From: Chamaelirium japonicum
Lineage: Eukaryota; Streptophyta; Magnoliopsida; Liliales; Melanthiaceae
DNA length: 64,000 nt
Reading direction: 5' to 3'
Assembly (NCBI GenBank): GCA_947650365.1
Contig: OX393551.1
Span: 7,010,542-7,074,541 of the forward strand
Positions 48,101-54,100 of the stretch are shown here, piece after piece. The position numbers and the translations under genes were made by a program. Positions within the stretch are counted from its first letter, which is position 1. The number at the start of each line of letters is the position of its first letter. Under the pieces are notes generated by a model. That model saw only the letters and a list, made by a program, of their open reading frames with translations, was not told where the DNA came from and ran no database searches.

Positions 48101-51100
48101 TTTAACAGCAGATAAGAACAACTTGGTTGTAAAAATCCCAAGTTAAAAAGGTAAGTAACATGTTTCGTTTGTTCTATTTATGTCTTTCAGATATACTATT
48201 CAAGAAAGTTGTCCCTGGCACTTCATAATGTGCCGGTAGGCATATTCCTTGTCATGCCACTATTTCTGCGTTCTCCAAACGTTTCAGCGTACACTTGGCT
48301 TACAACCTTTTCCGACATGATGAAGGGTATGTTTTGGCAATTGACTTCACAAGCATACCTCTTGCATACCTCCTGAGGGTTTTCAATATGACTTTATGGA
48401 ACTTTCTCTTGCCCGATCTTTTCATGAACACACATAAATACAAAGAAAAGTCGCAACTTACTTTCTCTGACTTCATTTCATGTTACTTTCTGTTGCTTCT
48501 GGTTTTTTATGATGTTAGATATTACCTGTTTGCTACTCTGGTGTATAGTTATGTGTTTGGTATCTATTTTTATGGTGCTCGAATTACAATACCGACCCTA
48601 AACAGTGTTGAAATAATTTTTGGCACGGGTTTTAGTGCACCACATTGTTTAACCAAATGGTTCTAATGCGTTGGTTTACTAGAAAACACGAACCCTAGTC
48701 AAAATAAGCCATATTATAATCAAGAAATTTTAAGAACTATGGTTTGGAGCTGTTGAGACTTGAGAGCCTGTTAAACATGTTTATTCCGTAACCTTTTACC
48801 TTCAAACTATGAGAACATACTTCATAGTTTAAATAATGGATCGAATCACCAATCTTCTTGTTTTAGTGTATCCACACAATCAGGTTTTTCATGACAAGAT
48901 GTGTCTGTGGCTAGCTTTGACTGCATAGGTGATATAGTGACATCCTCTCCCATGGTCTCCTCCATCCCCTCCCCTTTGGATACACGGTCATCGCCTCACC
49001 CATACTTCATGACTAAAGTCATTCTGTTCTGGATTTGAACAAGTCCTTCATGTCCAAGGGACAGGGCCTTCCTCACAGGAGGGGCTGGGAAAGTACTGGC
49101 CCACCAGATTCACTTGGCATAATATGACTATAGTGGGCACAACTGTTGTGTGACAGAAGGTATCAGGTAGGGTATGTGACTGCGACAACCTCCACATTCG
49201 ACTCCTTATCCTCACAACGGTTGTCTCATGGAAGGTGCTACAAGGTTCTCTCTAATGCATCAATGTTCCGAACATAAAACTAGATTCAATGGCCTCTCTT
49301 AGATGTGTGGTGTAGCCTCGTTATATGTTTGGCTTTCCCTAACAAGATTTCAGCTACACAATGAATTCCTTTAATTTTTTGGACTACCAATGCTTATATG
49401 AGAAACAATAGGGACATAGTTATGTGAGATGGATCTTGAGTCAGGATTCATATGAATTTGTATTTGAATAGATTAGTTGTGCCTATACATGCTTCTATTG
49501 TTGTAACCTATTTTGGCACAATGAACGATGGTTGCATTGTCAGTTGTAAGAAAAAGATTGATATGTAGGGTTACAATATTAATCAATGTGTATACACATG
49601 TCTATGCTAGATAGCTGTGTCAGAAAATTCTATTTTCCGGAGCTTTCCAATAGACTGTCAATTTTTGTCACCTACTTTTACACCAAATTGAGCAATGTCG
49701 CTTCCTGGAATCGGCTTAAGTAATTCCATTCACCCTTTTTGCTGTCTTTTTAAAATTTCCCTTAAATGTCTGAGGATGCGTAGTTGTTCTCCTTTGCCAG
49801 AATTCCATCACTCTTTTTCTTCTAGCAAGTTTGGAAAAATATTATTATTGAACTTCTAATTCGAAACAGCAAGTAGAAAGGTTTTAACATCTAATGCAAC
49901 CAGATGCACATCTAGTTTCTAAAATATATGTTAATTAGTAGGGTAGCTTACCAATTTGGATCTTGTTGGGTGGTCTAAAAAAGCTAATTGTATTTGATTG
50001 ATTTCGATATATATATATATATATATATATATATATATATATATATATATATATATATATATATATATATATATATATATATATATATATGGGGAGGGAT
50101 ACTCTTACTAATGGAGTTACAAATCGCCTTTTACCTAACCTAGAGGTTTCAGAATTTGATGAAACTTGGTGGGGATGCTCTCTATGGCAAGTTGATCATC
50201 CTCACCAAAAATCATCAAATTATATAACCTCTAGGGGCATCAAATATGTTATTCAAATTAACGGTTAAAATGAACGGTCGATAAAGCTTCTAACATTTGA
50301 TGCCCCTAGAGGTTATAGAAATTTGTTGATTTTTGGTGAGGATGATCACCTTGCCATAGAGAGCATCCCCACCAAGTTTCATCAAAATCTGAAACCTCTA
50401 GGTTAGGTAAAAGGCGATTTGTAACTTCCATTAGTAAGATTTCATTAGTAAGAATATCCCTGCCTTATATATATATGGGGAGGGATACTCTTACTCATGG
50501 CCTCTTACTGATGGGCATTTACTAATGATCTGGACCATCCGTTCCGATCATGATGGTCCAGATCATCTCTCCCCCTTTCTCTCTATCTCTGTCTCTCAAT
50601 CTGCCGACCCCGACCCCGACCCCGACCTCCGGCTCTGGCAGCCCCCCGACCCCCCCTCCGGCAGCCCGACCCCGACCTCGATCCCATTCCTGATCCCCTC
50701 CGGCAGCCCGACCCCCGTCCCCGACCGGAGCACCCCACGCCCCACGTCGGCCCGCCGCTCCGCGCCCCGCGCCTGCCGATCTGCATCCCTCGCCGGTGTC
50801 GCCGGAAGGTGTTGCGGTCAGGGAGGGGGTCGCCGGAAGGGGCTGACGGAGCTGGAGCCGGTGGGGAAGGTCGAGGTCGGGGGGCACCGGGGCTCCGATT
50901 GGGGTCGGGGTCGGGGGGATCGGTGGGGGGTGGGTCTGTGTTGGCTGATCAGGAGAGAGAGAAAGAGATAGAGAGAGAGGGTTGATCTCAGCCCTCTATC
51001 AAATTTGATCGGACGGCCCGGATCATTAGTAACCCCCACTTGTAAGAGGCCATGAGTAAGAGTATCCCTCCCCTATATATATATATATATATATATATAT

Positions 51101-54100
51101 ATATATATATATATATATATATATATATATATATATATATATATATATATATATATATATATAGGGGCATGCTATAATGCGGCATGCGGTAAGTGCGGCA
51201 CTGCACTGTAGCCGTCTAATGCACCGCTGCGTGCATGCGATGTACGCAGTGGGCGTATCAGACGTCTGCGGTGCGGTGCCGCACTTACCGCATTATAGCA
51301 TATATATATATATATATATATATATATATATATATATATATATATATATATATATATATATATATATATATAGGGGCATGCTATAATGCGGCATGTGGTA
51401 CGTGTGGCATCGTACCGCAGCCGTCTGATGCACGCGCTGCGTGCATGCAATGCACGCAACGGTGCATCAGACAGCTGCGGTGCGGTGCCGCACTTACCGC
51501 ATGCCACATTATAGCATTTCTCTCTCTTTCTCTCTCTCTCTATATATATATTTATATATATAGATAGATAGAACGAGAGAGAGGAAATGGGAAATGAGCT
51601 GCCAGCCTATTTCGGCGGAATGGGCAGCCACCCATTTGAAGCCCTTAGGTGTTTTAGAATGTGCTGATTTTTTGTGAGCATAAGCACCTTATCTTAGATA
51701 GAACACCTACGAAAAATCAGCACATTCTAAAACTACTAGGGGCATCAAATGTTAGAAGTTTTATCTAACGTCCGTTGTAACCGTTAATCTGAAATATAAC
51801 ATTTGATTCCCCTAAATGTTTTAGAATGTGTTGATTTTTTGTAGGTGTGCTATCTAAGGTAAGGTGCTTATGCTCACAAAAAATCAGCACATTCTAAGAC
51901 TTGGGTGTGTGGCTGCCCATTTCGTCGAAATAGGCCGCCAGCCTATACCCCGTATCCTCATATATATATATATATATATATATATATATATATATATATA
52001 TATATATATATATATATATTGTTCCCCATAATGTTTCTATACTTGGCTACAGACATGTAATCTCAAAAGTTAAAATTGTATTTTTTCCATAAGTTCGTTG
52101 CAGCTCCGTTTCATATTGTTTGCTGACCTTTGTGTAATTCCTTAAAACCTACCGATTCTATACTTCTTTTGTAGAAATTTTCTATATACCATCATTGCTC
52201 GTTGATAGAAGAACATTATGAGTGCCATATAATTGCACAATAGTCTATAAAGTTAGTCGATTAGAGGTCCATTATATGTCTTCTTCGTTTGTTCGTTTGT
52301 TTTTGTTGGTCCTAGGCCTTAGTTGAATATATATATATATATATATATATATATATATATATATATATATATATATATATATATATATATATATATATAT
52401 ATCCAGCAGGTAGAGGCGTCGCTTGAATTTTGGAGAAGCAGGGACTTAATTGCAGAATTGTGGGAGTTTATTTGTAGAAAAAGGTCCAACATTGGATATA
52501 ATTGAAGCTGACCTCATTGCTAGATTTAAGGAATCAAATCCTAGAGTTTTAGGAGCCTTCTGACACAGCCCCAAAAGGTGACAATGAGTCCAGCTATAGA
52601 GATTCCGTGTGGTCAGAGATTCATACAAACACAAAGGGGCCCTTCAATAAATTGACGGATTGATATCCTTATTTCCCTAACGAGCTCCCAGAAAGAAAGG
52701 GATAACAATCCTTACTTTAAAGGGGATGAATCATGAGATAGATTTGGCCTCTCATGGCATTAGATTAAGATAAGAAGAGGATTTACCTTCTAGAAACTAG
52801 TGTCCAATGCTATTGAGTATTGAGGCTCCTAATTAAGTGACTTTTAATTTATGCATGCATAATATTATTTATGAAAATCAATAAAAATAGAGAATTGCCC
52901 AAAAGTATTAAAAAACGAGCAAATAAGATCAATTTTATAGAATCAATAAATAAATATAGAAAAAGTAAGTAGAGAATTGTGGTGTTTAGGAGTCCAAATT
53001 TATTTATCCTTTGTTCCTAGTTTTTAGGTTTTAAGTCCTTGATGGTTCATGGGGCTACTATCCATTGTGAATCAGAGTATATTCATATATGTTTCAAATT
53101 TCAGCCTTTAATGAATTTCTTTAGAAGAGTCATGTTTTGGCCTACCAGCTCAAGGTTTCCTTCCTATTCTCCTATTTGATTGTTTAACCTATCTCAACCA
53201 GATATAGTCTTACATTTATAGGTATCAGAGTATACCAATCTCTTTATCAATTGGTATCAAGCAAGATTATCCCCCTTGTTATATTGAGTAGTCATGCTGG
53301 AAGCAATGACTACAAGGCGAGCTTGAATGCTGAGGATTGATGTGACGAATTACATGGATCTAATCATCTAACCCAACAAAAGGTGATGGCAGAGATGTGG
53401 AATTAGATCGAGTGGTTCACACAGGAGATTAAGATTCTTGATCTTCAACAATATTACATATATCATCTCCGGCGAGAGATCTTGAGCCCAAAGTGTGACA
53501 TGCAAGAGGATGGACCATTAAATACGTTATAAACCGCAAGTCCATGACCTTGAATCCACTGAAAGAGAATTCAGAGGGGATAAAGGATTCTTCTTCAAAG
53601 GTCATACGCAGATGAATTCCTTAGTTTTTGATTGGAGTCCAGCTTTTCCTCTTCAACGAAGAGCCCGAAGAGATGACCATGGAAGATACTTAATAAAATG
53701 TCATGCATTAAGATGAAGAGAATTCCAAAGATGAGCATAGGTGGGTCCAAGAAGGATCTCATGGAGGTGCCTGAGAAAAAGCCCATGGAAGAATCCAAAA
53801 ATGCACATGAGGGAAAGCTTGCAGTTGAGCTCGAGATGTTCGTGGGCAAGCCTAAGGAGGATCCCATGATGTAAGTCGTGGTTTTTTACTTGTCATCATA
53901 GTCTCCCTGTGTATTGAAGAATTCCCTGAGTCTAATTCAATAGGTGAGGCAGTGAACATTGACCATAATCTTCAAAAGTTCAAATCTTGCAATATCAGAT
54001 GGAAAGCCCATTGTACAGATTCATGTGACAGATGAGTGCATTCATCAAATACGAAAAAAATATCGTCCTACATCAATAGTTGGATCCTCTGAATTGTAGC

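Follow-up and report, generated by a model that had tools for sequence, protein, structure and literature searches.

We analysed a 64,000-nucleotide stretch of the Chamaelirium japonicum genome (assembly GCA_947650365.1, contig OX393551.1, positions 7,010,542 to 7,074,541; hereafter the window) and observed, within window positions 50007-52019, five foldback elements (E1 to E5) with borders that abut the four pure (TA)n arrays of this segment. An original prediction for this DNA had claimed these arrays and foldbacks, and both the tract count and the fold energies bore it out. The cluster is very probably a row of short, non-autonomous, inverted-repeat Mutator-like elements (MULEs), each integrated by a staggered cut of 9 or 10 base pairs (bp) into a (TA)n array that was already present.

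All five elements are listed on the + strand, and the arrays and spacers carry no strand. The left flank is a (TA)n array at 50007-50090, recorded in both the tandem-repeat table and the TA-tract count. It is followed by E1 (50091-50465), a 375-bp foldback with long arms and the tips GGGGAGGGATACTCTTAC and GTAAGAATATCCCTGCCT, whose family has a 9-bp target duplication, and, beyond a TA spacer at 50466-50476, by E2 (50477-51073), a 597-bp element with tips as in E1 and a GC-rich interior. A second array (51074-51163) leads to E3 (51164-51301), a foldback of about 138 bp that belongs to the E4 family and has a shortened right tip, and a third (51302-51372, starting at 51300 in the tandem-repeat call) to E4 (51373-51522), a foldback of about 150 bp reading GGGGCATGC...AGCATTTCTC, whose family shows a 10-bp target duplication at its clearest non-TA copy. 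A spacer at 51523-51580 separates E4 from E5 (51581-51959), a 379-bp foldback reading GAGGAAAT...GTATCCTC with an E1-homologous core, for which duplications of 10 bp and 11 bp were observed at two non-TA copies. The array at 51960-52019 forms the right flank. Element and array borders had been predicted to coincide; the borders do meet the arrays, but E1 and E2 are only 11 bp of TA apart and E4 and E5 are separated by a degenerate TC/TA/GATA/GA stretch.

In the whole window only seven alternating TA tracts of at least 12 bp were observed, each at least 60 bp long. Four belong to the cluster, two (63383-63474 and 63881-63977) bracket another foldback, and one is bare, so that six of the seven touch an element. 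The bare (TA)38 array, at 52327-52402, lies about 300 bp past the cluster, adjoins no element and is a possible target that is unoccupied. A second small cluster was observed at 63030-63977, made up of the foldback M7 (about 63030-63382), which has (CA)n to its left, and E6 (63475-63880), the 82-bp arms of which show 95% similarity. Between the two lies (TA)46, and past E6 lies (TA)48; the bases flanking E6 on the left and right (its flank phase) are A|A. The fold energies of E1 to E6 and M7, computed with RNA parameters, were 11 to 28 standard deviations below those of dinucleotide shuffles (60 per element).

The original prediction had called the five foldbacks structurally different, which overstates the case. 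A similarity of 85% over 131 bp links E3 with E4, one of 81% over 135 bp links E1 with E5, and E1 and E2 have about 24 bp of tip in common; judged by these similarities, the five would form three related groups. The likeness of E3 and E4 also raises an alternative for that part of the cluster, in which a single (TA)n-element unit was duplicated in tandem to yield both elements with their arrays, instead of two separate insertions. The two stand in the same orientation with a 209-bp period and 90% matches over the unit, as a duplication would give, but they differ by about 15%, the TTCTC tip of E4 is missing in E3, and E4-type segments are common beside other elements, and we regard this alternative as unlikely. 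An Rfam scan of the window gave no match at the gathering threshold, the E1/E2 tip had no match among viral contigs, and no MULE domain was observed in the ten open frames (of 73 in the window) that were put through Pfam.

Copies of the elements and their TA flanks

Further copies were sought in the window's own assembly (1.52 Gb), in which the window sits on a 100-Mb contig. First-look candidates, a loose count, numbered 3542 for E1, 1090 for E2, 3516 for E4 and 3601 for E5. Forty were scored per element, with identities to the window element of 93-97% for E1, 91-96% for E4, 90-92% for E5 and, among the longer matches, 69-84% for E2. Flanks were read at 40 E1 and 30 E2 loci (each set including the window's own copy, and two of the E2 loci being the same place), 20 E4 loci and 20 E5 loci; these were picked by similarity to the window copy, with a few extra E1 and E5 copies taken by tip pattern.

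Dinucleotide tracts of at least 10 bp on both sides were observed by a tolerant walk in 36 of 39 E1 copies (the window's own excluded), 16 of 20 E4 copies and 19 of 20 E5 copies, the E4 copies scored as lacking them being L073, L083, L088 and L090. A stricter walk found tracts of at least 8 bp on both sides in 70 of the 79 E1, E4 and E5 copies. Exact E1-type left tips numbered 463 genome-wide, with G or C at position -4 in 20 and A or T in 443; among the matches listed (100 of the 443, from two contigs), a hand count found 94 preceded by TATA (44) or ATAT (50) and 6 by other bases.

The copies were also observed in rows. Each 3.4-kb E1 locus contained a mean of 3.95 TA arrays (40 loci), and 230 of 265 segments between consecutive arrays, in the loci fetched up to L110 and the window, had inverted repeats at both tips (40-bp limit; L001, L009 and L030 were left out as duplicates, as was a segment that measured less than 90 bp once trimmed). 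None of 265 length-matched pieces from window 10-49 kb did so. With the target segment of each locus excluded, the count was 133 of 160 neighbouring segments, and in the window itself six of seven. An earlier, looser count (71 of 119) was set aside, as its 25-bp limit was too tight and missed E1 copies. Pure TA arrays are hard to assemble, and the arrays or the cluster could in principle be an assembly artefact; this layout is found again at many loci whose neighbours differ, which leaves this explanation scarcely credible.

Two further observations concern the rows. At L127, L080 and L068 adjacent elements are only 3-6 bp of TA apart, less than a 9-bp duplication, which suggests a subsequent deletion, or else an insertion right at the margin. 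At L131, taken with L070 (C12:2104300-2113654), a row of E6-like, E4, E5 and E1 relatives adjoins a MULE transposase gene (PF10551 match, 735-amino-acid frame).

Empty and occupied copies of the same sites

One E4 copy (L071) and one E5 copy (L097) had both outer flanks in common and so mark the same place of one host repeat (host repeat 1), whose other copies were found by querying the two flanks without the array. Among the 15 places fetched, six were TA alone or nearly so, from about 14 to 108 bp (L113 with one break), two had no array, two looked occupied when viewed from one side (L120, L121) and five were uninformative, with one flank absent or running into TA. A second host repeat was found likewise, and 20 places were fetched, picked for closely spaced flanks in the hit list. 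Sixteen of these were (AT)n alone (4, 6, 8, 10, 10, 12, 12, 13, 16, 26, 40, 60, 76, 78, 90 and 112 bp; one of the 12-bp tracts has a mismatch and the 13-bp tract an extra A), two held another short repeat and two were occupied. The even length of 15 of the 16 bare tracts is expected if arrays change in 2-bp steps. For both host repeats together, 22 of 35 places held nothing, or almost nothing, but TA (about 4-112 bp), and the remaining 13 comprised four empty places without a clean TA tract, four occupied and five uninformative ones.

The site in host repeat 2 was occupied in several ways, by one E4-type element (L047, L149, L150), by one E1 (L058, with no TA on its right side) or by a row of E4 and E1 (L004, L054). 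The flanks of L004 and L054 are about 98% alike, so these are probably one event, duplicated. Copies with none, one and two elements thus display the stepwise building of a row like that in the window, and a single genome shows how such rows are built. Bare TA sites together with occupied copies of the same sites indicate that existing (TA)n is where the elements insert and accumulate side by side. This was one of three routes considered in the original prediction, which looked for TA on both sides of copies and for TA-only empty sites; it is supported by both, the empty sites being paralogous ones of the same genome in place of the orthologous ones envisaged. Another of these routes, insertion of elements next to each other's TA flanks, agrees with the site copies that are empty or carry an E4-type element, E1, or E4 and E1, but amounts simply to repeated use of one array.

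Insertion into (TA)n would leave TA on both sides, so that the array would stay a target and the next element could land beside the first, giving a chain of elements linked through TA. The work would be done by a MULE transposase provided in trans. Slippage may later change array lengths in 2-bp steps and may also grow (GA)n/(TC)n tips.

The third route reverses the order of events, with elements bringing TA tails, or landing on very short TA, and arrays growing only after insertion. The flanking arrays are indeed often longer than the short empty sites, and GA/TC tips appear to grow beside E5-type ends. In Medicago, flanks are given as averaging 15 TA repeats against 9 in empty sites (PMC4486113), and similar growth for maize elements is recounted in the guayule paper (PMC5907723). 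Element-free paralogous sites, however, reach 78, 82, 90, about 108 and 112 bp of TA. We consider growth of the arrays after insertion improbable, also on the evidence of the target duplications and flank phases described below.

Target duplications and flank phase

Copies outside TA are rare, and the six that were read carry duplications of 8-11 bp. Nine-bp duplications were observed at two E1 copies, ATTAATCTT at L008 and AAGATCTAA at L126; an E4 copy (L083) has the 10-bp duplication CCCACAAATA, and two E5 copies have TTCTAGATAA (10 bp, L130) and TTTGATTAATA (11 bp, L101). MULE target duplications are reported as 8-11 bp (PMC5907723), and by this measure the sizes at the non-TA copies are those of Mutator. 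The GGGG..CCCC tips with a 9-bp duplication also fit the description of MuTAnT. In the original prediction, copies in non-TA flanks were to count against insertion into (TA)n; such copies do exist, but they are few, and what their duplications reveal is the mechanism, with the targeting of (TA)n left standing.

Among array-flanked copies no excess of duplications was observed outside the arrays, with 2 of 70 at 8 bp or more against a mean of 1.1 and a maximum of 3 in shuffled pairs; the same script recovered 6 of 6 array-free copies at 8 bp or more. The cut therefore most likely falls within the TA, and the idea of TA tails that later expand is disfavoured. A first version of this test (1 of 79, itself TA) was set aside because it would miss the known array-free duplications.

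If arrays slip by two bases, the parity of a duplication should set the flank phase: an odd (9-bp) duplication should give like bases left and right of the element, whichever the phase, and an even (10-bp) one opposite bases. Forty E1 copies were examined, 24 with TA runs of at least 6 on both sides, nine in which the run was shorter on one of them (including the window's own E1, by its mutated tip) and seven unparsed. The same base was observed on both sides in 22 of the 24 (12 A|A, 10 T|T), with 2 opposite (binomial p 3.6e-5); among the unparsed copies L007 and L044 were the same by eye and L039 opposite. E5 was A|T in 14 of 14 (20 examined, six without TA on at least one side). The E1 and E5 phases match the duplications at non-TA copies of these families, 9 bp in L008 and L126 and 10 bp in L130. 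Opposite bases were found in 10 of 12 G-tipped segments of the E4 family, as the 10 bp of L083 predicts. A further phase reading for E4 hinges on whether the T where TC meets TA is assigned to TC and is not main evidence. The E1/E5 component of the G-tipped segments had the same base in 29 of 34 and the E4 family in 2 of 12 (Fisher p 3.7e-5 between these). A count with fuzzy tips (46 of 51 same base) was discarded for border shifts and double pairings.

It is possible, with the balance tilted slightly to the negative, that flank phase is a lasting record of the target duplication, given that TA arrays slip in 2-bp steps, and that the families use different staggers (9 for E1, 10 for E5 and mostly for E4), all by plain cut-and-paste, the 10-bp users taking one of two registers (TATATATATA). 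The pattern was noticed post hoc, after inspection of copies, and several observations weigh against it. The E2 family shows both states (8 of 14 same base), and the pooled G-tipped segments show a modest excess (55 of 81 same, p 0.0017). L039 (E1) and L150 (E4-type, at the empty-site locus, odd) run contrary, the window's own E5 has A and not T on its right, the L101 duplication is of 11 bp, and in-register conversion of GA/TC tips to TA could account for the A|T of E5. The phase rule is not universal across families. Our literature search, with a single set of terms, returned one unrelated paper and none on the parity idea, and it is absent from the available portions of PMC4486113, PMC5907723 and PMC8449440; the trace that flank phase seems to keep of a hidden duplication is a possibly new detail. 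If it holds on a blind sample, the phase test would measure target duplications inside microsatellites, where repetitive flanks impede such measurement according to the Medicago paper (PMC4486113), and would let one choose between cut-and-paste and recombination models.

The phases bear on two of the alternatives. Inverted-repeat tails should give mirror images, and the E5 flanks (A|T) are mirror-like, as growth after insertion would have it, whereas in E1 either phase is found and most copies have like bases on the two sides; this argument against tails fails for E5. A recombination route, speculated on by the guayule authors (PMC5907723), has circular element copies integrating by homologous recombination through TA filler. 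It would account for rows without nesting and for flanks without duplications, and the E2 family, with no phase rule, is in keeping with it. Filler recombination, however, predicts no link between phase and the duplications at non-TA copies, of the kind kept by E1 (9-bp relation, 22 of 24) and E5 (10-bp relation, 14 of 14), and we hold it to be highly improbable.

In favour of staggered insertion of MULEs into existing (TA)n, MULE transposase domains (PF10551) are abundant in the genome, many in frames above 700 amino acids (150 of 1214 candidates scored). Several observations count against the insertion reading, among them that no autonomous element with matching tips (GGGGAGGGATACTCTTAC or AGAGGAAA) was found, one MULE gene neighbourhood having been read. 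That gene lies some 4 kb from an E1 copy; one of its flanks has a TA array at a distance of 2 kb, and the other lacks any for 3.2 kb. The duplication at one E4 copy (L088) is imperfect, with 8 of 9 bases matching, and that of L101, at 11 bp, exceeds a 9- or 10-bp cut. Among the empty places, the 18 in host repeat 2 include two with a different short repeat (TG; ATACA/CA), one with a mismatched base and one with an additional A, and two in host repeat 1 lack an array. As its left flank is single copy, with a genome query matching only itself, the window cluster gives no view of its own empty site.

Other window features and known systems

Elsewhere in the window we observed open frames with a NAM-associated domain (PF14303; 13302-13799, +) and, near it, a Plant_tran domain (PF04827; 14681-15019, -), a pair that we take to be arranged as in a PIF/Harbinger transposon. 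A reverse transcriptase domain (PF00078) at 60095-60484 (+) is possibly a fragment of a long interspersed nuclear element, and a 1049-amino-acid open frame at 482-3628 (+), with a weak sub-cut-off match to a gag-type aspartyl protease (PF13975), may be a long-terminal-repeat retroelement frame. The tandem-repeat table also lists a pure (GA)91 array at 42536-42717, and two-copy tandem duplications were found at 18489-18741 (135 bp) and 27492-27755 (132 bp, 99% identical).

The tested features of the cluster match known systems, and we therefore count it as another case of a known habit; on our analysis this insertion habit would be the phenomenon of SaTar, MuTAnT and microsatellite miniature inverted-repeat transposable elements (MITEs) already in print for rice, Medicago, guayule and pineapple. 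The original prediction had offered rice Micron as an analogy, which was right in kind, the likeness being one of habit. Micron (rice) and TAFT (maize), cited in these papers, are by description small elements in TA microsatellites, as here, and Micron has been reassigned to the MULEs as rSaTar2 (PMC5907723).

SaTar elements are described from guayule, rice, sorghum and citrus (PMC5907723). Compared by description, they are like the present elements in being short inverted-repeat elements of several families, mainly flanked by (TA)n and joined in rows, in having a minority of copies with 10-bp duplications (9 or 10 in citrus), and in unoccupied rice sites with TA alone (PMC5907723). The window elements (138-597 bp) show the same short length, terminal inverted repeats and mostly (TA)n-flanked copies, and the E1 loci with their neighbouring segments show rows of different elements joined by microsatellite. 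The guayule paper reports no nesting within its clusters (PMC5907723). SaTar differs in that many guayule flanks are unfit for a 10-bp cut-and-paste, with circles or recombination suggested, whereas the E1 and E5 phases here mostly fit cut-and-paste, and in that autonomous relatives were shown there (PMC5907723).

MuTAnT of Medicago truncatula shares with our elements the foldback MULE structure in (TA)n, the GGGG/CCCC tips, the 9-nucleotide duplications at a few non-TA copies and the TA-only empty sites, but comprises 218 copies and one putative autonomous element (PMC4486113), whereas the present elements gave first-look candidates in the thousands and no autonomous partner was identified. 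The Ac-mMITEs of pineapple are likewise MULE-derived MITEs in (TA)n with 9- or 10-bp duplications at non-TA copies; 46.1% of their full-length copies lie in non-nested clusters, and their GA/TC tips, proposed to lengthen into (GA)n/(TC)n, resemble the E5-type ends (PMC8449440). By description they differ in length, at 510-570 and 210-270 bp against about 140-150, 375-390 and 600 bp in the present elements (PMC8449440).

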